Shown in pieces: positions 6,877 to 16,957 of a stretch of 64,000 nt of DNA. The notes under the pieces are model-generated. The model was given only the letters and a program-made list of their open reading frames with translations. It had not been told where the DNA came from and made no database searches. Every line of letters starts with the position of its first letter. Position 1 is the first letter of the stretch. Source of the DNA: Deltaproteobacteria bacterium (lineage in GTDB: Bacteria > Desulfobacterota > Syntrophobacteria > Syntrophobacterales > Syntrophobacteraceae); the NCBI GenBank assembly GCA_012517315.1, contig JAAYVE010000042.1:62001-126000 (forward strand), read 5' to 3'. A program made the position numbers and the translations under genes.

Positions 6877-7739
6877 CTGAAAGCTTGCCGGTTTTCAATA
6901 TTCACTCACACGAGAGTTGGGGAGACCTTTGCCTGGTGAATAACCCCCTCCTCTCCCGAGGCATGTGCGTGGCCGAGCAGTGTGCAATGGTGAGTCCCTC
7001 GAGATGGGGTGAAATGATCTCGCATTCCTCAGCGTAGCTGGGTAATTGTGCGAGGGTGCAAACATGATGACAACGGCGATTTCAAATCCCCTCAAGCTCT
7101 TCTGGCGTTTTGGTGAAGCCAGCGGAGACTCCGGTTCCAACTGACGATCATGGCGTGATGTTCCCCAGGCCCCCGTGAGGATGAAGGTTGCGAGCAGGGG
7201 AGGCTGACGATGACAAGGTCGCTACATGGACGCACTCAGTCAGCCGACCCTTGTTGGTAATAGAATCAAAGACCACCTTCCTGATCCGTGGAGCTGCCAA
7301 TCGAAGCTTGTTCCTTAGCAGCTTTTCAATCGGGTGTCGATATTCTTTGAGGGGGAATGGGGAATCAGATGTCTGGAAATGGCATCAGCGGATCACGATG
7401 AAAACTGGGTCCAATCTGTCAGCTTGGTGTGCTTCTTGCCATCCTGCCCAAATAGGGCCTCGGATTGGCGATTCAGAAGGGGAAGAACGAACGGCGTGAG
7501 TCAGGGCTCTCTTCAGACATCACTGAGGTCCCATTGACAACGGGAGAGCACAAGAGAGCGGGGAGTTACTCTTCCTCAGGTGCTTCCACTGGGCAGGAAC
7601 TGTTTCTCCCAAACGGCATGCAATCCTGAGTGGGCAGCCGAACCAGAAGTGCTTCTTCCGCTTCGCGCCACACTCCTTGCAAGCTGGCCATCAACCCACT
7701 CAGGATTTCAACGTCCACACACGATCTACCGTGAGGGCT
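6877..7739 (-). other. Gene-free stretch of 863 bases with a 13-base perfect inverted repeat
   Basis: No frame here has convincing protein character. It separates the start of the glycan operon from the 3' end of the secreted protease gene, so it should hold the glycan operon promoter, but I could not pick one convincingly. A perfect 13-base inverted repeat (AATCCTGAGTGGG at 7622-7634 and its complement at 7695-7707) flanks about 60 bases. On the minus strand across this repeat a short frame reads like a Cys-x2-Cys ribbon (CKECGAKRKK, then FGCP) and is closed by stops on both sides, which may be a scrap of a decayed gene. Confidence 0.5.
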
Positions 7740-10082
7740 CTATCGCACCACGATCTGCCATTGGGTGTCCGGCACTTGGGCAGGGGTGAGAGGCAATCCG
7801 ACTGTGGCGGTCAGGCCGTTCATGAGCCACACATAGAGATAGCCTGCTGACTTGTGGTACCAGAGGATATCGGTATTTCCGTCGCCGTTGAAATCCCTGG
7901 CACCGCGGATCTGCCACTGAGTGTCCGCAACCTGGTTCGGCGCCAGCGGTACCCCGCTCATGGCAACCACGCCGTTCATGAGCCACACATAGAGATGTCC
8001 CGTCGTCGCGTTCTGCCACAGGATATCCACTGCTCCGTCGCCGTTGAAGTCTCCGGCGGCGCGAATCTGCCATTGGGTGTCCGGCACCTGGCTCGGCGCC
8101 AGGTATGAGCCCCCTCTCAGATAGAGGCCGTCCATGTGCCAGACGGCGAGGTGCCCCGTCCCTGTGTGCTGCCAGAGGAAGTCATTGTTGCCATCCTTGT
8201 CGAAATCAGCCACGGCCGCGATCTTCCATAGCTTATCAGACACCAAGGGCGGCCAAAGCGATGTTCCAACGATTGCCTGGACGCCGTTCATGAGCCAGGC
8301 ATAAAGGGAACCCGAAGGCTCATGGTACCAAAGGAGGTCCGAATTCCCGTCCCGGTTCAAATCCACAATTCCCCTGACCTGCCACCCCGTATCGCTGACC
8401 TGGGCAGGAGCGAGAAAAGAGTCTCCCGCAATGGTCAGGCCATTCATGAACCAGGCAACCAGACTCCCACTTCCTTGATGGTGCCAGAGGATATCTGCGA
8501 TGGTGTCACCGTTCAGATCATTCATTGCACCGGCAGTGACCGCAGACGTGACAAGGAACTGGGAATCGGAAAGATCCTGTGCCTCACATGTGCTGCCGTT
8601 GCTGGAACAAACCCGGATTCTGCCGGTGGCGCCGGGAGTGTGGGGGACCGTCCAGACACAAGAGGTGGTGGTCGGGGACACTTCGGCTACGAGGGAGAGA
8701 TCCGTTCCACTGGCATCGGTATAGTAAACCTTCGTTGTGGATGAGGAACTGAGGTCAGAAGCCGTCCATGCAATGACTTGCTGGGAACCCGCTGGCAAGG
8801 ATTCTCCCCCGTTGGGATAGGTGACCGTGACCCGGGGTGTCGCTCCCACCCGCCAGTTTGCTACCGTGACCCGGGTATTGTTGAGACTGAGGGCGTTGTT
8901 GGCAGAATTCACTGCGGTCTCGGAAACCCCAGTCGGCTTGCCGGCATACGTCACGTTGGGATTGGAGAAATTCAGAATGCGGGGACATCCGCCGGGGCAG
9001 TCGTATGCCATGATAGTCCTAAAGGCATTGTTGGGATCCTTGTATCCATAGGAGTAGGAATACGCCCCGTCTCCTACAGGGTCGGTCCGCGCGTGGTTCA
9101 GCCCCATGTTGTGACCCAGTTCATGGGCAAAGGTGTAGTTGGGGCTGATGCACACCTCCTCCACCACACTATAGGCATAGGGGGCAAAACCGGGGTTGTT
9201 GCCAGACATGAGCCAGGCAACCCCGCAGTACTGGGTATTAGGTGTTGCGGTGACGAGGGAGACCAAATCCGCCTTGTAGTTGTTCCGCAGGGTCGGCACC
9301 GTGTCCAAAAACCCGTCGGAAGGGGCTGTGACCCGGTTGAGATCGGTGACGATGTCTCCTGATTCCGAATAGCTCACTTCAATTGCTCCCACCAGTCTCA
9401 GCCTCTGGATGACGCCGCTGTTGGCGTAACCGGCGTTCGATTCCGCCACGCCGAGTTGAATCCTGGACTGGATGGCGCTTGTGCCTCCCGCTGAGACGCG
9501 GGCCGCCGGAGTGTAGACGACCAGGACATCGATCGTTGACCCATCATCCACAGTGGCCTGCGGGTCTGTCGTCTCTTCAAGCTGTGGCGGCTGCAGGTCG
9601 ATGAAATTATCGTCCGCATCGGGCAACGCTGATCGGTCCACCTCCTCCACCACGTGACTGTACCCGTCGTACCGGATGGAATAGGCCGCCTCAGGTGAGG
9701 TGATGCTCCCCGCCACCACTCCATCCCTTGCGACAATGACGACATCACCGGCAGGGAAGCCGTCGAGCTTACCCACCCAGGCCAGTCCATCGGCCTCCCG
9801 TTCAACGCGATGCAACCTTGCGGGAAGCACCACATCATCAAATAAATTCAACAGCAGTTCATGCTGTTTCAAATCAGCCGACCGCCTCTCGGCAGGGAGC
9901 CCGGGCAGTACGGGCAGGCTCACATCCACAGATCGGGCTCTGACGACGCCTTTCCTATTGTGAAAGGACCGGTCAGCCTCATAGCCCTTGGGCGTGAAGA
10001 GAACCTCCGGCTGCGCTGCCGCATAAAAAGCCGAGGACAGAAGCAAGACCATAACGGTGATGACACGTGCCACAATTTTCAC
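7740..10082 (-). CDS. Secreted metzincin metalloprotease with C-terminal VCBS/FG-GAP repeats
   Basis: 780 residues starting at GTG (10082) after GGGAG. Residues 1-23 form a signal peptide ending AAA. The catalytic zinc site HELGHNMGLNH is at 320-330 and the Met-turn TIMAY at 356-360, the pattern of metzincins of the reprolysin/M12-like group. A linker with an Ig-like flavour (about 415-510) leads into five repeats of about 50 residues (about 520-780), each with a calcium-binding-like DxNxDGxxD core and ending WLMNG. The protein should be exported and hydrolyse extracellular protein, the repeats forming a propeller-like or adhesion module. The same repeat family appears in the gene at 12295-14361. 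No membrane anchor at the C terminus. Confidence 0.9.
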   Translation of the reverse strand: MKIVARVITVMVLLLSSAFYAAAQPEVLFTPKGYEADRSFHNRKGVVRARSVDVSLPVLPGLPAERRSADLKQHELLLNLFDDVVLPARLHRVEREADGLAWVGKLDGFPAGDVVIVARDGVVAGSITSPEAAYSIRYDGYSHVVEEVDRSALPDADDNFIDLQPPQLEETTDPQATVDDGSTIDVLVVYTPAARVSAGGTSAIQSRIQLGVAESNAGYANSGVIQRLRLVGAIEVSYSESGDIVTDLNRVTAPSDGFLDTVPTLRNNYKADLVSLVTATPNTQYCGVAWLMSGNNPGFAPYAYSVVEEVCISPNYTFAHELGHNMGLNHARTDPVGDGAYSYSYGYKDPNNAFRTIMAYDCPGGCPRILNFSNPNVTYAGKPTGVSETAVNSANNALSLNNTRVTVANWRVGATPRVTVTYPNGGESLPAGSQQVIAWTASDLSSSSTTKVYYTDASGTDLSLVAEVSPTTTSCVWTVPHTPGATGRIRVCSSNGSTCEAQDLSDSQFLVTSAVTAGAMNDLNGDTIADILWHHQGSGSLVAWFMNGLTIAGDSFLAPAQVSDTGWQVRGIVDLNRDGNSDLLWYHEPSGSLYAWLMNGVQAIVGTSLWPPLVSDKLWKIAAVADFDKDGNNDFLWQHTGTGHLAVWHMDGLYLRGGSYLAPSQVPDTQWQIRAAGDFNGDGAVDILWQNATTGHLYVWLMNGVVAMSGVPLAPNQVADTQWQIRGARDFNGDGNTDILWYHKSAGYLYVWLMNGLTATVGLPLTPAQVPDTQWQIVVR

Positions 10083-10422
10083 GACAATCTCCCTGCTTAC
10101 ATGAAACCTTATTCATCCGAACCCTGCGAGCCAAGTACGTCCGGACAGCGCTTGGACAGCACCTGAATCATATCGCCCGGAGCAGCATACAAGGCAACAT
10201 GCAATCCGCACACCAAGACCCACCCGTACCTTTGTTTCCCGGCGCGATTGAACGGCCCACCCTTTTGTAGCCGCTCCCCAGCGGGTGCCGGGCGCACATT
10301 TCGAGCACCGTGCTTTCTCGAATTCGCAGAAATCCACGAGAAGTTCTGGGCATCGCGTCAAGAATCCGTCGAGAAATCCCCAAGACTTCGCTCTGTGATT
10401 CCTTTTGAACAACAGAATAGAA
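10083..10422. other. Divergent intergenic region, no gene seen
   Basis: Together with the bases up to 10536 this forms a 454-base divergent spacer between the secreted protease (minus) and the anchored coiled-coil protein (plus). I see no open frame with protein character here. The plus-strand promoter candidate is annotated separately; no clear promoter for the protease was found. Confidence 0.5.
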
Positions 10423-10451
10423 TTGACATTGATTCAACGGTCCTTCAAAAT
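10423..10451 (+). promoter_or_regulatory. Sigma70-type promoter candidate for the 10537 gene
   Basis: A consensus TTGACA (10423-10428) is followed after exactly 17 bases by CAAAAT (10446-10451, four of six matches to TATAAT). Transcription would start near 10458, about 80 bases before the coding start. Supported by pattern only. Confidence 0.5.
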
Positions 10452-10536
10452 CATTTGCGGTCGGTTGGCACCGGCAACGCAATCCCCCACCTCCAACGTT
10501 AGAAGATCCGCTCAATTCAATGAGGCAAGAAGCTCC

Positions 10537-11190
10537 ATGACGGACTGGAAGGCGATTTCACTTCAGGCAGCCATCATCCTCCTCCTCACCAGCGCCGGGA
10601 TCAGGTTTCTCTCCCCTGACATTTCCAAGGAAGACGTCGCGGCCATAAAGTCCCTGGCTGCAAAGCAAAATGATCTGGAGAACAGAATGGGTAAGGTGGA
10701 GGAATCCCTCGCCTCCATTTCCAGGAATCTGGATCAAACACTCAAACGGGTCGAACGCAACCTGTCGGGACCAGCGCCGGGTCCTGTGCCCCGGACACAG
10801 GCCGGGATTCAACCTCCTGGGCGTCCATCGGCCCTTCCGGAAAGCCCTCCACCGCGATTGCCGGCGGTGGCGGGTGAACCCGGCAAGCCGCCGGGCTTGC
10901 CCATGCCTCCAGCTCCCCTTTCTTGGATGGAAAATTTGTCTGAAGAAAAGCGAGGAAAAGTTGCCGAAGTCTTCAAGAGGCACGCCGATTCACTTCGCCA
11001 GGCAAAAAGGGCGGCTTCGGAGGGGACCCCTCCCAGTCCTGAAAGCCTGAAACAGTTGGCAGAAGCGAGTGAGGAAGCCATAAAGCAGGACCTCAGGGGT
11101 ATTCTCACCGAAGAGGAGTATCATCAGTTTGAGAAGTCTCTGCCTCCGAAACCCGCGCTTGCCCAGCCATCGACGACCGGTCCCAACTGA
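10537..11190 (+). CDS. Membrane-anchored periplasmic coiled-coil protein, function unknown
   Basis: The start is placed at ATG 10537, after GAGG and directly before a hydrophobic N-terminal segment (AIILLLTSAGI), because in-frame codons further upstream encode no recognisable structure and would hide it. The 217-residue product has one N-terminal membrane helix or uncleaved signal (about 8-25), a coiled coil (about 30-75), a proline-rich linker (about 80-120) and a helical C-terminal part with LSEEKRGKVAEVFKRH and LTEEEYHQFEKSL, loosely resembling the LTxxQ pattern of Spy/CpxP periplasmic proteins. It lies between a secreted protease (divergent) and a tyrosine-rich secreted protein (downstream). 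I do not recognise a named family; a periplasmic chaperone-like role is only a suggestion. Confidence 0.75.
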   Translation: MTDWKAISLQAAIILLLTSAGIRFLSPDISKEDVAAIKSLAAKQNDLENRMGKVEESLASISRNLDQTLKRVERNLSGPAPGPVPRTQAGIQPPGRPSALPESPPPRLPAVAGEPGKPPGLPMPPAPLSWMENLSEEKRGKVAEVFKRHADSLRQAKRAASEGTPPSPESLKQLAEASEEAIKQDLRGILTEEEYHQFEKSLPPKPALAQPSTTGPN

Positions 11191-11647
11191 ATTTCGGGGA
11201 AGCGATAGTGCATTTTTCTCGATGAGCCTCAAGGTTGTCATGCCGTACCCCTTCCCATCACTATCCAAGAACTTCCTTGGGCATTGCGGGGACTTTGGGG
11301 AACGGGCGGGAACGCAGCAGGGGGCAAAGCCACCTCGATCCGCCTTGATCCGGGGACGTCTGATGGCTGTTCTCGGAAGAGAGGCAGATTTGCATCCAAG
11401 CTCTGCGACGTTCAGTCCAATGGTCGCGGTCCTTCATTGCGGCGAAAGCAGCAGTCCAGTGAATCCGACCAGCCAACTGAATGCCAACATCCGGCTTGAA
11501 ACATCTCGGGTCACGGTTCGCTCCAATGGCCTGATGTTGGCTCCGAGGCCGCTCAGTTTGGGTTTCAGATAGTATCGTTTGTGATTCGAGGCAGATGTCG
11601 AGGGAGGAACTGCAGACAGCATTTTTCACCAAGGAAAGGAAACCGCC
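11191..11647 (+). other. Spacer upstream of the tyrosine-rich gene, no gene seen
   Basis: 457 bases without a credible reading frame. The downstream gene must be transcribed from here or from the promoter before 10537. A good ribosome-binding site (AGGAAAGGA, about 11633-11641) precedes the next ATG. I did not find a hexamer pair with proper spacing. Confidence 0.4.
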
Positions 11648-12154
11648 ATGATTGAACAGATCAAGATACAACTCAAGAAGATTGCATTTGTCTGGTGTTT
11701 TTGTGTGCTGGCATTGAGTTCCAGTGCTGCAAATGCCGGCTATTTTGCGAACGCATCCTATTACGCATGGTGCAGCAACTATTATCATGCCTACGCAACC
11801 TACTATGCAGAATACGCTCTGTACTTTGATTCATGGGGTTATTACAGCACCGCAAACACTTATACTTATTATGCCATGACCTATGCCGACTACGCGGAAA
11901 TCTATGCCGATTACGCAGAGCAGGACGCCCTAAACGGATATTATTACGGCACATTGACCTCATATTCGTATAGCGCATGGGAAAATGCGTATTATGACTG
12001 GCTGTATAAATATTACACCTGGTACTACCTGTACTACACCTATTACGGATATGATTACACCACAGATGCAATTGATAGTTCGTTTTGGGCCGCCTATTAT
12101 AATGGATTGAGCCTTTATTATTCAGGGCTTGCCAGTCTCGGTGGGGTCAATTAA
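11648..12154 (+). CDS. Extremely tyrosine-rich secreted protein, unknown family
   Basis: 168 residues with a signal peptide (about 1-30, cleavage predicted after SSAANA). I count 41 tyrosines in the mature part of about 138 residues (close to 30 percent) plus six tryptophans, mostly as YY pairs spaced 3-4 residues apart alongside Ala, Asp and Glu (for example TYADYAEIYADYAEQ). Lysine and arginine are almost absent from the mature protein, which is therefore acidic; there is one Cys after the signal. The low-complexity frame is clearly coding: codons vary between TAT and TAC, a signal peptide and a good ribosome-binding site are present, and a hairpin follows the stop. Possible roles, all inferred, are a self-assembling fibre or coat, a dityrosine-crosslinked matrix, or an aromatic conductive material. 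Confidence 0.8.
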   Translation: MIEQIKIQLKKIAFVWCFCVLALSSSAANAGYFANASYYAWCSNYYHAYATYYAEYALYFDSWGYYSTANTYTYYAMTYADYAEIYADYAEQDALNGYYYGTLTSYSYSAWENAYYDWLYKYYTWYYLYYTYYGYDYTTDAIDSSFWAAYYNGLSLYYSGLASLGGVN

Positions 12155-12232
12155 CAGATTTTCGAAACGGGGTCGGTGCTCTTCCGTCTCGCCCGATCCA
12201 AGGGCGCATCAGGCTTTATCCTGAAACCATGA

Positions 12233-12261
12233 AGGGGATGGCAACTCCTGTTCCATCCCCT
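12233..12261. terminator. Hairpin between convergent genes, probable bidirectional terminator
   Basis: A 9-base perfect stem (AGGGGATGG at 12233-12241 with CCATCCCCT at 12253-12261, 11-base loop) lies between the tyrosine-rich gene (plus) and the repeat protein gene (minus). The U-tract is weak on both sides, so termination strength is uncertain. Confidence 0.45.
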
Positions 12262-12294
12262 CCCTTGTCTTCAATCCCTTATCAATAGCAGCGG

Positions 12295-14361
12295 CTAGTT
12301 CCTGATGACCCAGTTGGGGTCAGGAACTGTCGCCACCAAATCAGCAGCGGTCACAGAAGGACCGTTCATTCTCCACAGGTAAAGCTGACCACTCGGACCG
12401 TGCCTCCAGAAAATGTCGGCCTTGTTGTCCGCATCGAGGTCCGCGACCTCGGCGATGATCCAGTCGGGGTCGGGAACCGTGGCTACCAACGCCGCGGAGG
12501 TGAGTACCGGTCCGTTCATGGTCCAGAGCCAGACCTGACCGCTCGGACCATGCCTCCAAAGAATGTCCCCTCGACCATCGGCATTGAAATCGCCCGTTTT
12601 CTCTATCACCCAGTTCGGATCGGGAAGGGTTGTCACCAAATCGGATGCAGTGATGACAGGCCCGTTCATCGTCCAAAGGTAAATCTGTCCGGTAGGACCG
12701 TGTCTCCACAAGATGTCCGCCCGATTGTCACCCGTGAAATCCCCCACCTTGTCAATGACCCAGTTGGGGTCGGGCACCGTCGCCACCAGGTCGGCAGCGG
12801 TGATGGCATGCCCGTTCATCGTCCAAAGGTAAATCTGTCCGGTAGGACCGTGCCTCCACAAGATGTCCGCCCGATTGTCACCCGTGAAATCTGCCACCTT
12901 CTCGATCGTCCAGGCCGGGTCGGGCAGTGTGGCGACAAGAGTGGCGGAGGCAATGGCCGTTCCGTTCATGGCCCAAAGGTAGATCTGTCCCGTAGGGCCA
13001 TGTCTCCAGAGAATATCCGCGTCATTGTCGCCGTCGAAGTCGGCGTTCCCAGCGATCGCCCAACTGAGATCTCCAACGGTGGCCACCAATCCATCCGTTG
13101 CAATGCTCGAACCGTTCATCAACCACAGGACAACGCTCGCGTCACCGAGATACTGCCAAAAAATGTCCGATTTCCCATTGGCATTGAAATCTGACTTGCG
13201 ATTCTTGACACTGTTGACGTGGTTGGCCGTGCCGGCGACGGCGTCATGGTAACTGATGTGCACGTGATCCCCCGAGTCGACGGCAATGGACGAATAGAGA
13301 CCCGGGTCACTCGTGACACCATCCCCCTCCACGACGAAACTCGTCTCGAATGAACCGGTGGTGTTGTTCGCATACTTTAGGGCGGCGTTGCTGAAATCGT
13401 AATAGCTGATGTGCACGAAGCCCCCCGAATCAAGAGCCAGGGAAGTGTATTGCCCCACATCGTCGTTGTTTATCCCGCCGTCATCCAGGGTGACAACGGC
13501 GAAGGCACCTGCAGTCCCCGATGCGTACTTCAAATCAAAGTCGAAGAAGTCGTAGTAGCTGATATGCACTGTTCCAAGGGAGTCCACGGCAATGGAACTG
13601 TCCCAACCCGTGAAACCGCCCGCCGCATCAACGACCTCCACGGTGAAAGGCCCTGGAGAGGTCCCCGTGGCGTACTTGAGGGCTCCGTTGGTGACGTCAT
13701 GGTAACTGATGTGCACAACATCACCAACGACAGCAATGGAGGTATACTGACCAACATTGTCGTCGGCTATCCCCCCGTCATCCACCACCACGGTAGTGAA
13801 ACCTGCAGGGCCGCCAAAGGCGTACTTCAGATCCCCGTTGGCCACGTCATAGTAGCTGATGTGGACGGTCCCGTTGGCATCAACGAAAATGGAGGTATCC
13901 TGGCCCGCGTCCAAACCTCCCCCAATGCCGCCGTCGATTGCCGGGAACACGACAAACGCACCGGAGGCGTTGGTGGCGTAATTGAGTGCGCCGTTGGTGG
14001 CATCATAGTAGCTGATGTGCACATTTCCGAGGTTATCCAAGGCAATGGATGAAAACTCTCCCACATTAGGTCCCCCTGCACCCCCGCCATCCACCGTCAC
14101 AGCCACAAACGCCCCAGATTTATTGTTGGCGTATTTGAGGTCGCCGTTTGTGACATCGTAGTAGCTGATGTGGACATTGTTTGCCGCATCCCTGGCAATG
14201 GAAGTATCGAGCCCGGTATTGGCTCCATCCACTTGCACCGGGTTCCAGATGATGGGAGGGCTCTGTGCCCATGCCCCATTGGTCATGAAGGCACCAAGCG
14301 TCAGATACGCCATGGTCCCAAGAAGTACCAGCCAGAATATTTGATTGCGCCACTTGCTCAT
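12295..14361 (-). CDS. Secreted repeat protein: sialidase-like N repeats and VCBS/FG-GAP C repeats
   Basis: 688 residues, ATG after GGAAGGAGA. Residues 1-32 are a signal peptide ending GAWA. Roughly residues 40-385 are about seven repeats of 45-50 residues built on SSIALDxxGxVHISYYDxxNGxLKYA, reminiscent of sialidase or beta-propeller blades. Residues 390-688 hold about six 50-residue repeats built on DFTGDNRADILWRHGPTG ending in WTMNG, the same family as the C-terminal repeats of the protease at 7740-10082. No catalytic domain is visible, so a calcium-stabilised surface or extracellular adhesin or binding protein is likely. At the DNA level two repeats are nearly identical (see repeat entry), pointing to recent duplication. 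Confidence 0.88.
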   Translation of the reverse strand: MSKWRNQIFWLVLLGTMAYLTLGAFMTNGAWAQSPPIIWNPVQVDGANTGLDTSIARDAANNVHISYYDVTNGDLKYANNKSGAFVAVTVDGGGAGGPNVGEFSSIALDNLGNVHISYYDATNGALNYATNASGAFVVFPAIDGGIGGGLDAGQDTSIFVDANGTVHISYYDVANGDLKYAFGGPAGFTTVVVDDGGIADDNVGQYTSIAVVGDVVHISYHDVTNGALKYATGTSPGPFTVEVVDAAGGFTGWDSSIAVDSLGTVHISYYDFFDFDLKYASGTAGAFAVVTLDDGGINNDDVGQYTSLALDSGGFVHISYYDFSNAALKYANNTTGSFETSFVVEGDGVTSDPGLYSSIAVDSGDHVHISYHDAVAGTANHVNSVKNRKSDFNANGKSDIFWQYLGDASVVLWLMNGSSIATDGLVATVGDLSWAIAGNADFDGDNDADILWRHGPTGQIYLWAMNGTAIASATLVATLPDPAWTIEKVADFTGDNRADILWRHGPTGQIYLWTMNGHAITAADLVATVPDPNWVIDKVGDFTGDNRADILWRHGPTGQIYLWTMNGPVITASDLVTTLPDPNWVIEKTGDFNADGRGDILWRHGPSGQVWLWTMNGPVLTSAALVATVPDPDWIIAEVADLDADNKADIFWRHGPSGQLYLWRMNGPSVTAADLVATVPDPNWVIRN
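12661..12891 (-). repeat. Near-identical tandem copies inside the VCBS region, period 150 bases
   Basis: The 81-base block 12661-12741 recurs at 12811-12891 with one mismatch that I can see (a T/C difference in the run after GGACCGTG). The spacing is exactly 150 bases, which equals one 50-residue repeat, so gain or loss of a unit keeps the reading frame. The other repeats are more diverged. Confidence 0.85.
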
Positions 14362-14794
14362 TATTTTCTCCTTCCGTGATCCATGTGTGAAAACAACCGA
14401 GTAAATCTCCCGGAATGGTTGAATGAAATCGGATCTATTGCAGTGATTATCTCAACTTTAAGCAAGGCACCCACGATGTAAATAGGTAGAAGTACCCATT
14501 TCCCATCCAGTAAGTATGCTTTTCTACGCGCAATTCCAAGTTTCGGATGGTATGAACCTCGATATCTGCCTTGACCACTATTTTTGCGGATTCGGTTGTT
14601 CCCACAGAGTGTGAGCAAAGGTTGCTGAGGTTCCAGTCCTCTTCTTGACAGTATTCGTCCAAATAGTTTCATTCCTTGAGCATGCTCTTCAGATTTCTCC
14701 CCCGGAAGGTTCATGAGCGGGATGGGAAAGGAAGGGTTGGGCGGGAAGCGCGGCCGGCTTGCTGCCTTAGGATTCGAAAGGCTCCTCTCGGCCG
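14362..14794 (-). other. Intergenic stretch, no gene supported
   Basis: 433 bases between two minus-strand genes. A 71-codon frame on the minus strand (14447-14662) exists but has no ribosome-binding site and no family signature that I recognise. The ribosome-binding site of the repeat protein gene lies just after 14361. The stretch is visibly richer in A+T around 14440-14600 than its neighbours, which would fit a promoter region. Confidence 0.4.
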
Positions 14795-16957
14795 TCATTG
14801 AGCGGTCACAAACAGGACGGATGATCCCCCGTCGTGCAAGAGTTGGAAGTCTCCGGTGCCCTTGCCGCAGGGAAGGAGAGCACAAGGGTCGAAGGTGACC
14901 TCCATCTCGTCTTCCCCTGGCACCCTGCTTTTCAGAATCAATCGGGCTTTTTGCCTCCAAGGCCAGTTGAGGGGATCCTCCCCGAACACAACGCCCCCTA
15001 TGGAGTACCTGTCCAGTCCACTGGTCGGCACGAGTCGGAAACTTTTGGAATTGTCGTCATTCTCTCTATTTCTTGTGGGCATTTCAAGCCATCCCGTCCA
15101 GTTTTGGTGAATCACCACCCTTGCGACTTCGTCTGACCATGTCTCTTTTTTTTCGTTTGAACTTCTTGAAACAAGGGAGAGTTCCCCGGCGCCCCCTGGA
15201 TTCCGAATGAGAACGCGGAGGGACGCGGATCGGGGTTGTTCTGTCGCTTCCAACTGGATCCAGCGATATTCCCAAGCGGGAATCCACCCTTCCCGGGCGA
15301 CCGGGTGGTGTTTTCGGCGCCTCCCCAAGGGCGAGTACCGAAATTCGGGAAGGGAAATGCACCTGTCCTTTTCGTCGAGCCCTTCGTAGGCGGGGTGATA
15401 GACCGTCGGATTGTAGCCGACGGCGAACTTAAGTTTCGGCCGCCTGAGCCATTCCATTTCCACGGAAGTCCCCTCGAAGGCGGGGTGGTAATACACCGCT
15501 CCCCGCTGCATGGCACCGTGGATGAAATAGAAGGCCATGGAAATGGTGCTCGTGTAGAGCACGCGGTCACCCGGTTTTGATTCGGCAAGCATGCGTTCCA
15601 CCTGTTTGCGGTCGAGGCTCAGGGGCTGCCGGTCCTGCATGTACTGCCGGGTTGCCTCCACGATTTCCGCGCCCGAAAGAGCTGTTTCCATCCCATACCC
15701 CACGAGTGCGGCACAGACAAAGAGAGGCCAGAGTCGTTCCACGTTCCGGGAAAGCCCCTGGACGGCAGTCCCGGCAAAGGACTTCAAGCGCCGGACGCTC
15801 TCCGAAAGGGTGAACACGAAGGCGTGCCCCGTCGCGCCGACGAGGACCACGACCATGGGAATCCACAGGCGGAAGAAAAGGTCCCCTTCGGGCGAAACCG
15901 GATGCGTGTGATAAAGGGAGGCAATGAGCACCAGGACCGAGATGATGAGAAAGCGCATCAACCCTCGGCGGTCCCGGGAGGGCATGAGAAGGATCCCGAG
16001 GACAACGGCCGGAAGGAAAACAAAGAATGGGCCGAAGAGCCCCTCTTTCAGGTTCACCATGGCTGCCGCCGCACCCACCACATTGAAGCCGTAAGCCTCG
16101 GCAACCTGCTTCAAAGACGGCAGGGCAGCCATGCCTGAAAAAACGTTTAAGATCTGGGGCCTCCCCACAAAGGACAGGACATAGGCTCCCACGAGACCGA
16201 CCCCGCCTATGCCGATCGCAACTCTCCAGACTCTCCCTCTTTTTTGCGGTTCAGCTATGGAGAGGGCCAGCAGCATGGCGATGACGAGATGAACCGCGCC
16301 CACAGGGTGGATGGGCGGAAGCAGCAGGGCACCAATCAGGAGGGCCCAGAGAGCGTCTCCCTGGCGTTGGAGAATGCGGGCCCACAAGAGCACCGCCATT
16401 CCTGTCGCCAGGTTCGACGGGGTCAAATAGTGCAGTCCCGTGCATGGAAAGACTTTGAACGCGAGCAGGGCGAGGGTGGCTCCCGCCACGGTCCGGTCCC
16501 AGAAGACGGACAGAAGGAAGGCGAAGGCTACCCCAAAAAAGGGTGGAGCCAGACTCCACAGCACTTTGTACGACCAGATGAGGTCCGGTCCCAGCCGTTT
16601 CAACCCCAGGAGGACTGCGGAAAAAAGAGGGTGGTAGAAGGGAAAGGGAAAAGTGGCCAGGGCCCGCTGCCGGATGACCCTGGGATCGGTCGTTTGTTCC
16701 TGGAACTGCTGTCGCAAGTCTTCTAGCGCGGGGCAGTCCTGGAAGAAACACTCCTCCATCTCCTGGGTGCGAACAAGGAAAGCCAGGCTGTCGTCCACCT
16801 CCGGTGGGAGGTCCCTGGTCCACAGGGGGCCCCACACGAGATATCCCTGAACCGCTATGTACACGGCGAGGCCGAGAGCCAGGACAAGCCATCCCCCGAT
16901 TCCATCGCGTCTTGAAGGGATTGGGGAAGACTGCATCGCAGGGGGAGACTCCGGCAT
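14795..16957 (-). CDS. Polytopic membrane protein, GT-C glycosyltransferase-like
   Basis: 720 residues. A cytoplasmic N-terminal tail (1-22) leads to about ten to twelve hydrophobic helices (to about residue 420), then a large soluble C-terminal domain (about 450-720). The first extracytoplasmic loop carries acidic PPEVDDS followed by Cys-containing MEECFFQDCPALEDLRQQ; an acidic motif in this loop is where GT-C enzymes hold their catalytic base, and the helix pattern after it (FYHPLFSAVL) fits. No closer family was recognised. Inference: transfer of a sugar from a polyprenyl-phosphate donor in the periplasmic leaflet. Divergent from the serine-palmitoyltransferase-like gene, with a 317-base spacer, so both may serve the same envelope lipid, but that is only context. 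Confidence 0.7.
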   Translation of the reverse strand: MPESPPAMQSSPIPSRRDGIGGWLVLALGLAVYIAVQGYLVWGPLWTRDLPPEVDDSLAFLVRTQEMEECFFQDCPALEDLRQQFQEQTTDPRVIRQRALATFPFPFYHPLFSAVLLGLKRLGPDLIWSYKVLWSLAPPFFGVAFAFLLSVFWDRTVAGATLALLAFKVFPCTGLHYLTPSNLATGMAVLLWARILQRQGDALWALLIGALLLPPIHPVGAVHLVIAMLLALSIAEPQKRGRVWRVAIGIGGVGLVGAYVLSFVGRPQILNVFSGMAALPSLKQVAEAYGFNVVGAAAAMVNLKEGLFGPFFVFLPAVVLGILLMPSRDRRGLMRFLIISVLVLIASLYHTHPVSPEGDLFFRLWIPMVVVLVGATGHAFVFTLSESVRRLKSFAGTAVQGLSRNVERLWPLFVCAALVGYGMETALSGAEIVEATRQYMQDRQPLSLDRKQVERMLAESKPGDRVLYTSTISMAFYFIHGAMQRGAVYYHPAFEGTSVEMEWLRRPKLKFAVGYNPTVYHPAYEGLDEKDRCISLPEFRYSPLGRRRKHHPVAREGWIPAWEYRWIQLEATEQPRSASLRVLIRNPGGAGELSLVSRSSNEKKETWSDEVARVVIHQNWTGWLEMPTRNRENDDNSKSFRLVPTSGLDRYSIGGVVFGEDPLNWPWRQKARLILKSRVPGEDEMEVTFDPCALLPCGKGTGDFQLLHDGGSSVLFVTAQ

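Follow-up and report, generated by a model that had tools for sequence, protein, structure and literature searches.

The tyrosine-rich exported protein which we have studied in the window (the whole stretch of 64,000 nucleotides that was analysed) is, as judged from sequence comparison, one half of a two-gene system that has not been described before, and no accident of one genome: its rare, diverged relatives are always found just after the same membrane-anchored gene. The evidence comes from four loci in all: the window and the genomes G014, G305 and G469. What seemed an oddity of a single genome has become a testable system, an exported family with an extreme Tyr content and a conserved membrane partner. 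The features of the window are the following:

10537–11190, + strand: conserved partner gene of 217 aa; its product runs from a membrane helix at the N-terminus through a coiled coil and a Pro-rich linker to a helical domain at the C-terminus, which ends in LTEEEY.
10921–11157, + strand: conserved helical domain at the C-terminus of the partner, resembling CnrX/Spy/CpxP on weak fold evidence.
11648–12154, + strand: Tyr-rich exported protein, 168 aa from an ATG start (mature part 138 aa, 29.7% Tyr).
11648–11737, + strand: Sec signal peptide of the Tyr-rich protein, read by eye, with predicted cleavage between SSAANA and GYF.
11759–11842, + strand: first Tyr heptad block, YYAWCSN YYHAYAT YYAEYAL YFDSWGY, from Tyr periodicity and helical moment.
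11990–12052, + strand: second Tyr heptad block, YYDWLYK YYTWYYL YYTYYGY, from the same two measures.
12232–12261, + strand: hairpin GGGGATGG...CCATCCCC, on the 3' side of the Tyr-rich gene, without a proper T-run.

We will start with the Tyr-rich gene itself. The initial annotation had described an exported protein with 41 Tyr and 6 Trp in its mature part and hardly any Lys or Arg, and the frame is exactly as it was given there. The 138 mature residues also contain 3 Phe and 20 Ala, with an aromatic share of 36%. Charged residues are limited to 12 Asp plus Glu and one Lys, with no Arg, and the net charge is −11. There are 9 Gly, no Pro and a single residue each of His, Cys and Met. Over the whole frame Tyr amounts to 22%; the contig stretches examined contain 364 stop-to-stop segments of 120 aa or more, and the runner-up among them reaches only 6%. 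The Tyr codons are mixed (25 TAT and 16 TAC) and a tandem-repeat search gave a single trivial match (9-bp / 21-bp), so that the gene is not a DNA repeat or a microsatellite.

Membrane helices and signal peptides were assigned by eye. Cleavage of the window protein is predicted after Ala30, and A-x-A cleavage sites are present in all four Tyr-rich members. The other gene signals proposed in the initial annotation stand in part: the ribosome-binding site (AAGGAAAGGAAACCGCC-ATG) is plausible and the 3' hairpin is present, with arms GGGGAUGG/CCAUCCCC and a fold z of −2.45, but it lacks a proper T-run and a terminator scan downstream of the gene found none. This hairpin may also serve the convergent gene 12295–14361.

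A feature absent from the earlier description is the 7-residue periodicity of Tyr. The Tyr–Tyr spacing in the window protein has its peak at 7 residues, with 24 pairs observed against 11.4 expected (z 5.2), and both blocks follow the register YYxxYxx or YYxWYYx. At 100 degrees per residue, the value for an alpha-helix, the aromatic moment has a z of 4.6 against permutations; the strand-type moment (170 degrees) is not above them. The same holds for the Tyr-rich protein of G469, where the 100-degree moment is significant and the 170-degree moment is not. In permutations the aromatic helical moment of the G305 and G014 proteins is not significant. The spacing of 7 and the single aromatic face indicate a helical protein and not a fibre of the YYPP or YGGY type; it is probably a rod or bundle of helices with an aromatic stripe. 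An AlphaFold model from three sequences is almost entirely helical, with low confidence (pLDDT 54). A structure search with this model gave only generic helical bundles, which we have discarded. The mature protein is strongly interface-active, with a Wimley-White mean of −0.22; the reference from 138-aa windows of 16 genes in the window is +0.19, with a standard deviation of 0.10 and a minimum of −0.08.

Direct searches with the Tyr-rich protein gave no homolog in its own genome and 40 relatives, and no relative in genome contigs, viral contigs and phages. The family has no match in Pfam, NCBIfam, PHROGs or the PDB, and no description of such a bacterial Tyr-rich protein was found in the open-access literature. 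DNA patterns of the Tyr heptads, applied to 26 genomes of the family and 395 of the phylum, retrieved mainly Pro/Gly-Tyr proteins, Tyr tails of large proteins and DNA repeats, which were judged unrelated by their composition. Other Tyr-rich families were observed as well. Locus L048 (genome G134) has two adjacent Tyr/Cys-rich lipoprotein-like frames, 536–856 and 1246–1614, with the common end SNYVNYSDYVD; they form another, unexplained family. Loci L013, L015, L017 and L022 contain short exported proteins rich in Tyr, Arg and Pro, whose Phe-rich ends resemble each other (PGFxxxFGF and the like); this type occurs in several genomes belonging to the same taxonomic family.

The key to the relatives is the partner gene 10537–11190, which the initial annotation did not mention. 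In G014, from the same family but a different genus, a weak match of the partner is followed after 10 bp by a 314-aa protein with a signal peptide; the two partners align by BLASTP over their full length (E 3e-8). The two-sequence profile A1 then detected the partner in G305, from another taxonomic family (HMM E 3.5e-12), and a three-sequence profile detected the one in G469 (E 5e-24). The latter corresponds, by a public genome scan with a single short peptide pattern, to the record JAERTK010000155.1, a Desulfobacteraceae MAG, from which the phylum is identified as Desulfobacterota. In all three homologs a Tyr-rich protein with a signal peptide (14–23% Tyr) is found just 3' of the partner on the same strand. 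The annotation had made its case depend on homologs in relatives: none appears by direct search, but three other genomes provide Tyr-rich proteins through the upstream gene.

Gene order and strand are identical in the four loci. Their common features are a partner with a membrane helix and a LTEEEY-type domain, directly upstream, and an exported protein with a signal peptide and at least 15% Tyr in its mature part: 29.7% in the window, 28.5% in G469 (154 aa), 20.3% in G305 (160 aa) and 15.5% in the longer protein of G014 (314 aa). The gap between the two genes is 457 bp in the window, 10 bp in G014, and 227 and 120 bp in the two remaining loci. Three members have neither Pro nor Arg in the mature part; G014 has 3 Pro and 4 Arg. 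As a control, we inspected 28 loci from chance-level matches of the partner profile, and none has a frame of 120 aa or longer in which Tyr reaches 12%. Weak matches of the profile (E > 0.001) were taken as chance, because they have no Tyr-rich neighbours. The G014 protein (L088, 8839–9783) seems to be built of two halves related to each other, and contains the motifs YYAGC and YAGC.

The relationship among the Tyr-rich proteins is uneven. Those of G469 and G305 align nearly without gaps over 121 residues, with a z of 12 against composition-preserving shuffles and a score 7.9 standard deviations above shuffles of 7-residue blocks. Judging from these alignments, they are true homologs. The link of the window protein to them is modest: p is 0.005 with G469 and 0.002 with G305 in composition-preserving shuffles, 0.008 and 0.03 in block shuffles. 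The G014 protein does not score convincingly above shuffles with any of the others, so it may be a positional analogue. Protein constraint, which the initial annotation had proposed to look for in relatives, is visible between the Tyr-rich genes of G469 and G305: their codon positions 1/2/3 differ by 0.44/0.38/0.63, similar to the 0.40/0.30/0.60 of the partner genes. From this codon pattern we consider the gene to be under constraint at the protein level, and its reading as a real gene with a signal peptide is confirmed, the export signal by eye.

The pair has a patchy distribution. It occurs in 2 of the 26 genomes of the family and, in the order to which G305 belongs, in 2 of 85; it was not found in G001, a genome of the same genus, nor in plasmids, phages and viral contigs. 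The flanking gene 14795–16957 was used to locate the same region in G001 and other genomes, and different genes are found there: in G001 the match is followed by glycosyltransferases, an ABC transporter and a methyltransferase. For this reason a stretch of about 7 kb, approximately 7100–14400 in the window, looks like a lineage-specific insertion or replacement. The GC content of the Tyr-rich gene is below that of its surroundings at all four loci, in part due to its TAY codons, and in three of them (the window, G305 and G469) the GC3 of the whole pair is below that of most neighbours. Such values, together with the patchy spread, would suit horizontal transfer or fast turnover, but do not prove it.

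Some neighbours deserve mention in their own right. On both sides of the pair there are exported proteins, 7740–10082 (− strand) and 12295–14361 (− strand), both with five FG-GAP-like repeats (DILWRH...YLWxMNG) at their end; the former has an M12B reprolysin-like metallopeptidase domain. The gene 14795–16957 (− strand) codes for a 720-aa protein with multiple membrane helices and no Pfam match, 40–59% identical to proteins of five relatives.

The four members of the partner share one layout: a membrane helix at the N-terminus, then a stretch that is coiled-coil or of low complexity, a Pro-rich linker, and the C-terminal helical domain. In the latter L, K, F, R, G and P residues are invariant, as well as the final L-[TS]-x-[EQ]-E-Y. 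AlphaFold models this domain as a helical hairpin (pLDDT about 60–85). Its best structural neighbours include STV, CnrX, Spy and CpxP, proteins of one superfamily, at Z 5.5–7.5; unrelated helical chains, such as RNA polymerase helices, score alike, so that the match does not exceed what helical hairpins give by chance. Spidroin N-terminal domains also appeared and were treated as a common helical bundle. Pfam Metal_resist (PF13801) matches only the window member of the four, with E 0.011 and 16.3 bits, below the cutoff of 29.2. With fold scores equalled by unrelated helices and a Pfam match under the cutoff, we have not filed the partner as a member of this family, and hhalign found no match between its domain and a nearby ZraP-like protein in L124. 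We say only that it may act in the manner of a tethered Spy/CnrX-type protein.

Our preferred interpretation, plausible although somewhat short of probable, is a two-gene envelope module in which a membrane-tethered, chaperone-like partner attends an exported helical protein which is interface-active and prone to aggregation. The partner would be anchored in the inner membrane by its N-terminal helix, with the CnrX/Spy/CpxP-like domain held out in the periplasm on the coiled coil and the flexible Pro-rich linker. This domain would bind the Tyr-rich chain on its exit from the Sec channel, so that the aromatic helices, sticky and surface-active, neither aggregate nor enter the wrong membrane. 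Once released, the helices could pack against one another by their Tyr faces, or against a membrane or some other surface, and build up an assembly or layer that is acidic and aromatic, either in the outer envelope or outside the cell. Its chemical crosslinking is possible, but nothing that we have seen requires it. The analogy is with Spy, an ATP-independent holdase with outer membrane proteins among its clients (PMC7870927, PMC8546600); it is known to hold unfolded proteins as well (PMC7870927, PMC8546600, PMC8144458). Spy has a basic cradle (PMC8144458). The partner domain has none and is slightly acidic (charge −2 to −5), which weakens the analogy; the Tyr-rich proteins are acidic as well.

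A more far-reaching version is possible but doubtful: the pair would make a new envelope or extracellular polymer of Tyr-faced alpha-helices, a "tyrosine zipper", each with its own tethered chaperone, and the two genes would travel as a cassette from one member of the Desulfobacterota to another. Should the partner prove to be a dedicated chaperone, the pair would show how bacteria export a very sticky aromatic helix, and it would offer materials science a genetically encoded Tyr-faced helical polymer.

Other functions are less supported, since no oxidase, cytochrome, metal-efflux or immunity-type gene was seen to be common to the four loci and typical metal ligands are few. Metal handling is unlikely, although phenolate and carboxylate groups can bind Fe(III). 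The partner would then be a tethered sensor or binder like CnrX and the Tyr/Asp/Glu-rich protein a chelator of Fe(III) or other hard metals, in keeping with CnrX among the better structural matches and Metal_resist as the best Pfam match of the window partner. However, the partner domains have 1–3 His and no Cys, the His common to three members is a Tyr in G469, and the Tyr-rich protein offers only its single His, Cys and Met; the four loci were not seen to share a sigma factor, sensor kinase or efflux gene.

The initial annotation had proposed a dityrosine-crosslinked coat or fibre, which we now find distinctly unlikely. The protein is exported, and its Tyr content exceeds that of mussel foot proteins (>10 mol% Tyr; PMC4220933). 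Nevertheless it has a helical register instead of the Lys, Gly or Pro repeats typical of known crosslinked materials, no peroxidase, oxidase or tyrosinase was noticed among the neighbours profiled at the four loci, and oxidative crosslinking would be less expected in low-oxygen life. It is quite improbable that the Tyr/Trp helices relay electrons over a short range in the envelope of this anaerobe, or act there as an antioxidant, sacrificial or hole-hopping: the aromatic share and the single aromatic face would agree with such a role, but the four loci were not seen to have any linked cytochrome or redox gene in common.

An antagonism pair, with the tethered protein as immunity and the Sec-exported aromatic helical protein as a membrane-active, bacteriocin-like product, is very improbable. 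The patchy occurrence, the interface activity and the fast divergence of the Tyr-rich protein would fit it, whereas export or processing genes were not seen alongside, the partner appears as a folded periplasmic domain and not an integral membrane bundle, and phages, plasmids and viral contigs contain nothing of the kind. Finally, a chance frame or decaying gene without function, as might be suspected from the failure of direct searches in 40 relatives and the other genes at this place in G001, is scarcely credible and in the main refuted by the signal peptide, mixed Tyr codons, heptads, synteny with the partner in three genomes and codon-position constraint.

We may now compare the module with known systems. 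Exported proteins of the YYPP, YGGY and YYRP types, common in the same family of Desulfobacterota, are also short, with a signal peptide and many YY pairs. Their richness in Pro, Gly, Arg or His means that they are not expected to be helical, whereas the window protein has no Pro- or Gly-rich Tyr repeats; most genomes with such proteins have no partner homolog by profile. Adhesive and coat proteins, such as mussel foot proteins and diatom AC3362 (PMC4220933), are likewise secreted, Tyr-rich and of low complexity, but they are Lys-rich, often Pro-rich and repetitive, while the window protein has about twice their Tyr, arranged in helical heptads, with one Lys and no Pro or Arg. The helical hairpins of Spy, CpxP, CnrX and ZraP (PF13801 and relatives) come closest to the partner, whose all-helical domain of about 85 aa aligns with STV, CnrX, Spy and CpxP; CnrX is also membrane-tethered. 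The partner differs from them by the lack of a sequence match above the cutoff, by few possible metal ligands and a slightly acidic character, and by LTEEEY in the place of their LTxxQ motif. It also stands apart in that a coiled coil and a Pro-rich linker carry this domain, and in that its gene is paired with a Tyr-rich one.
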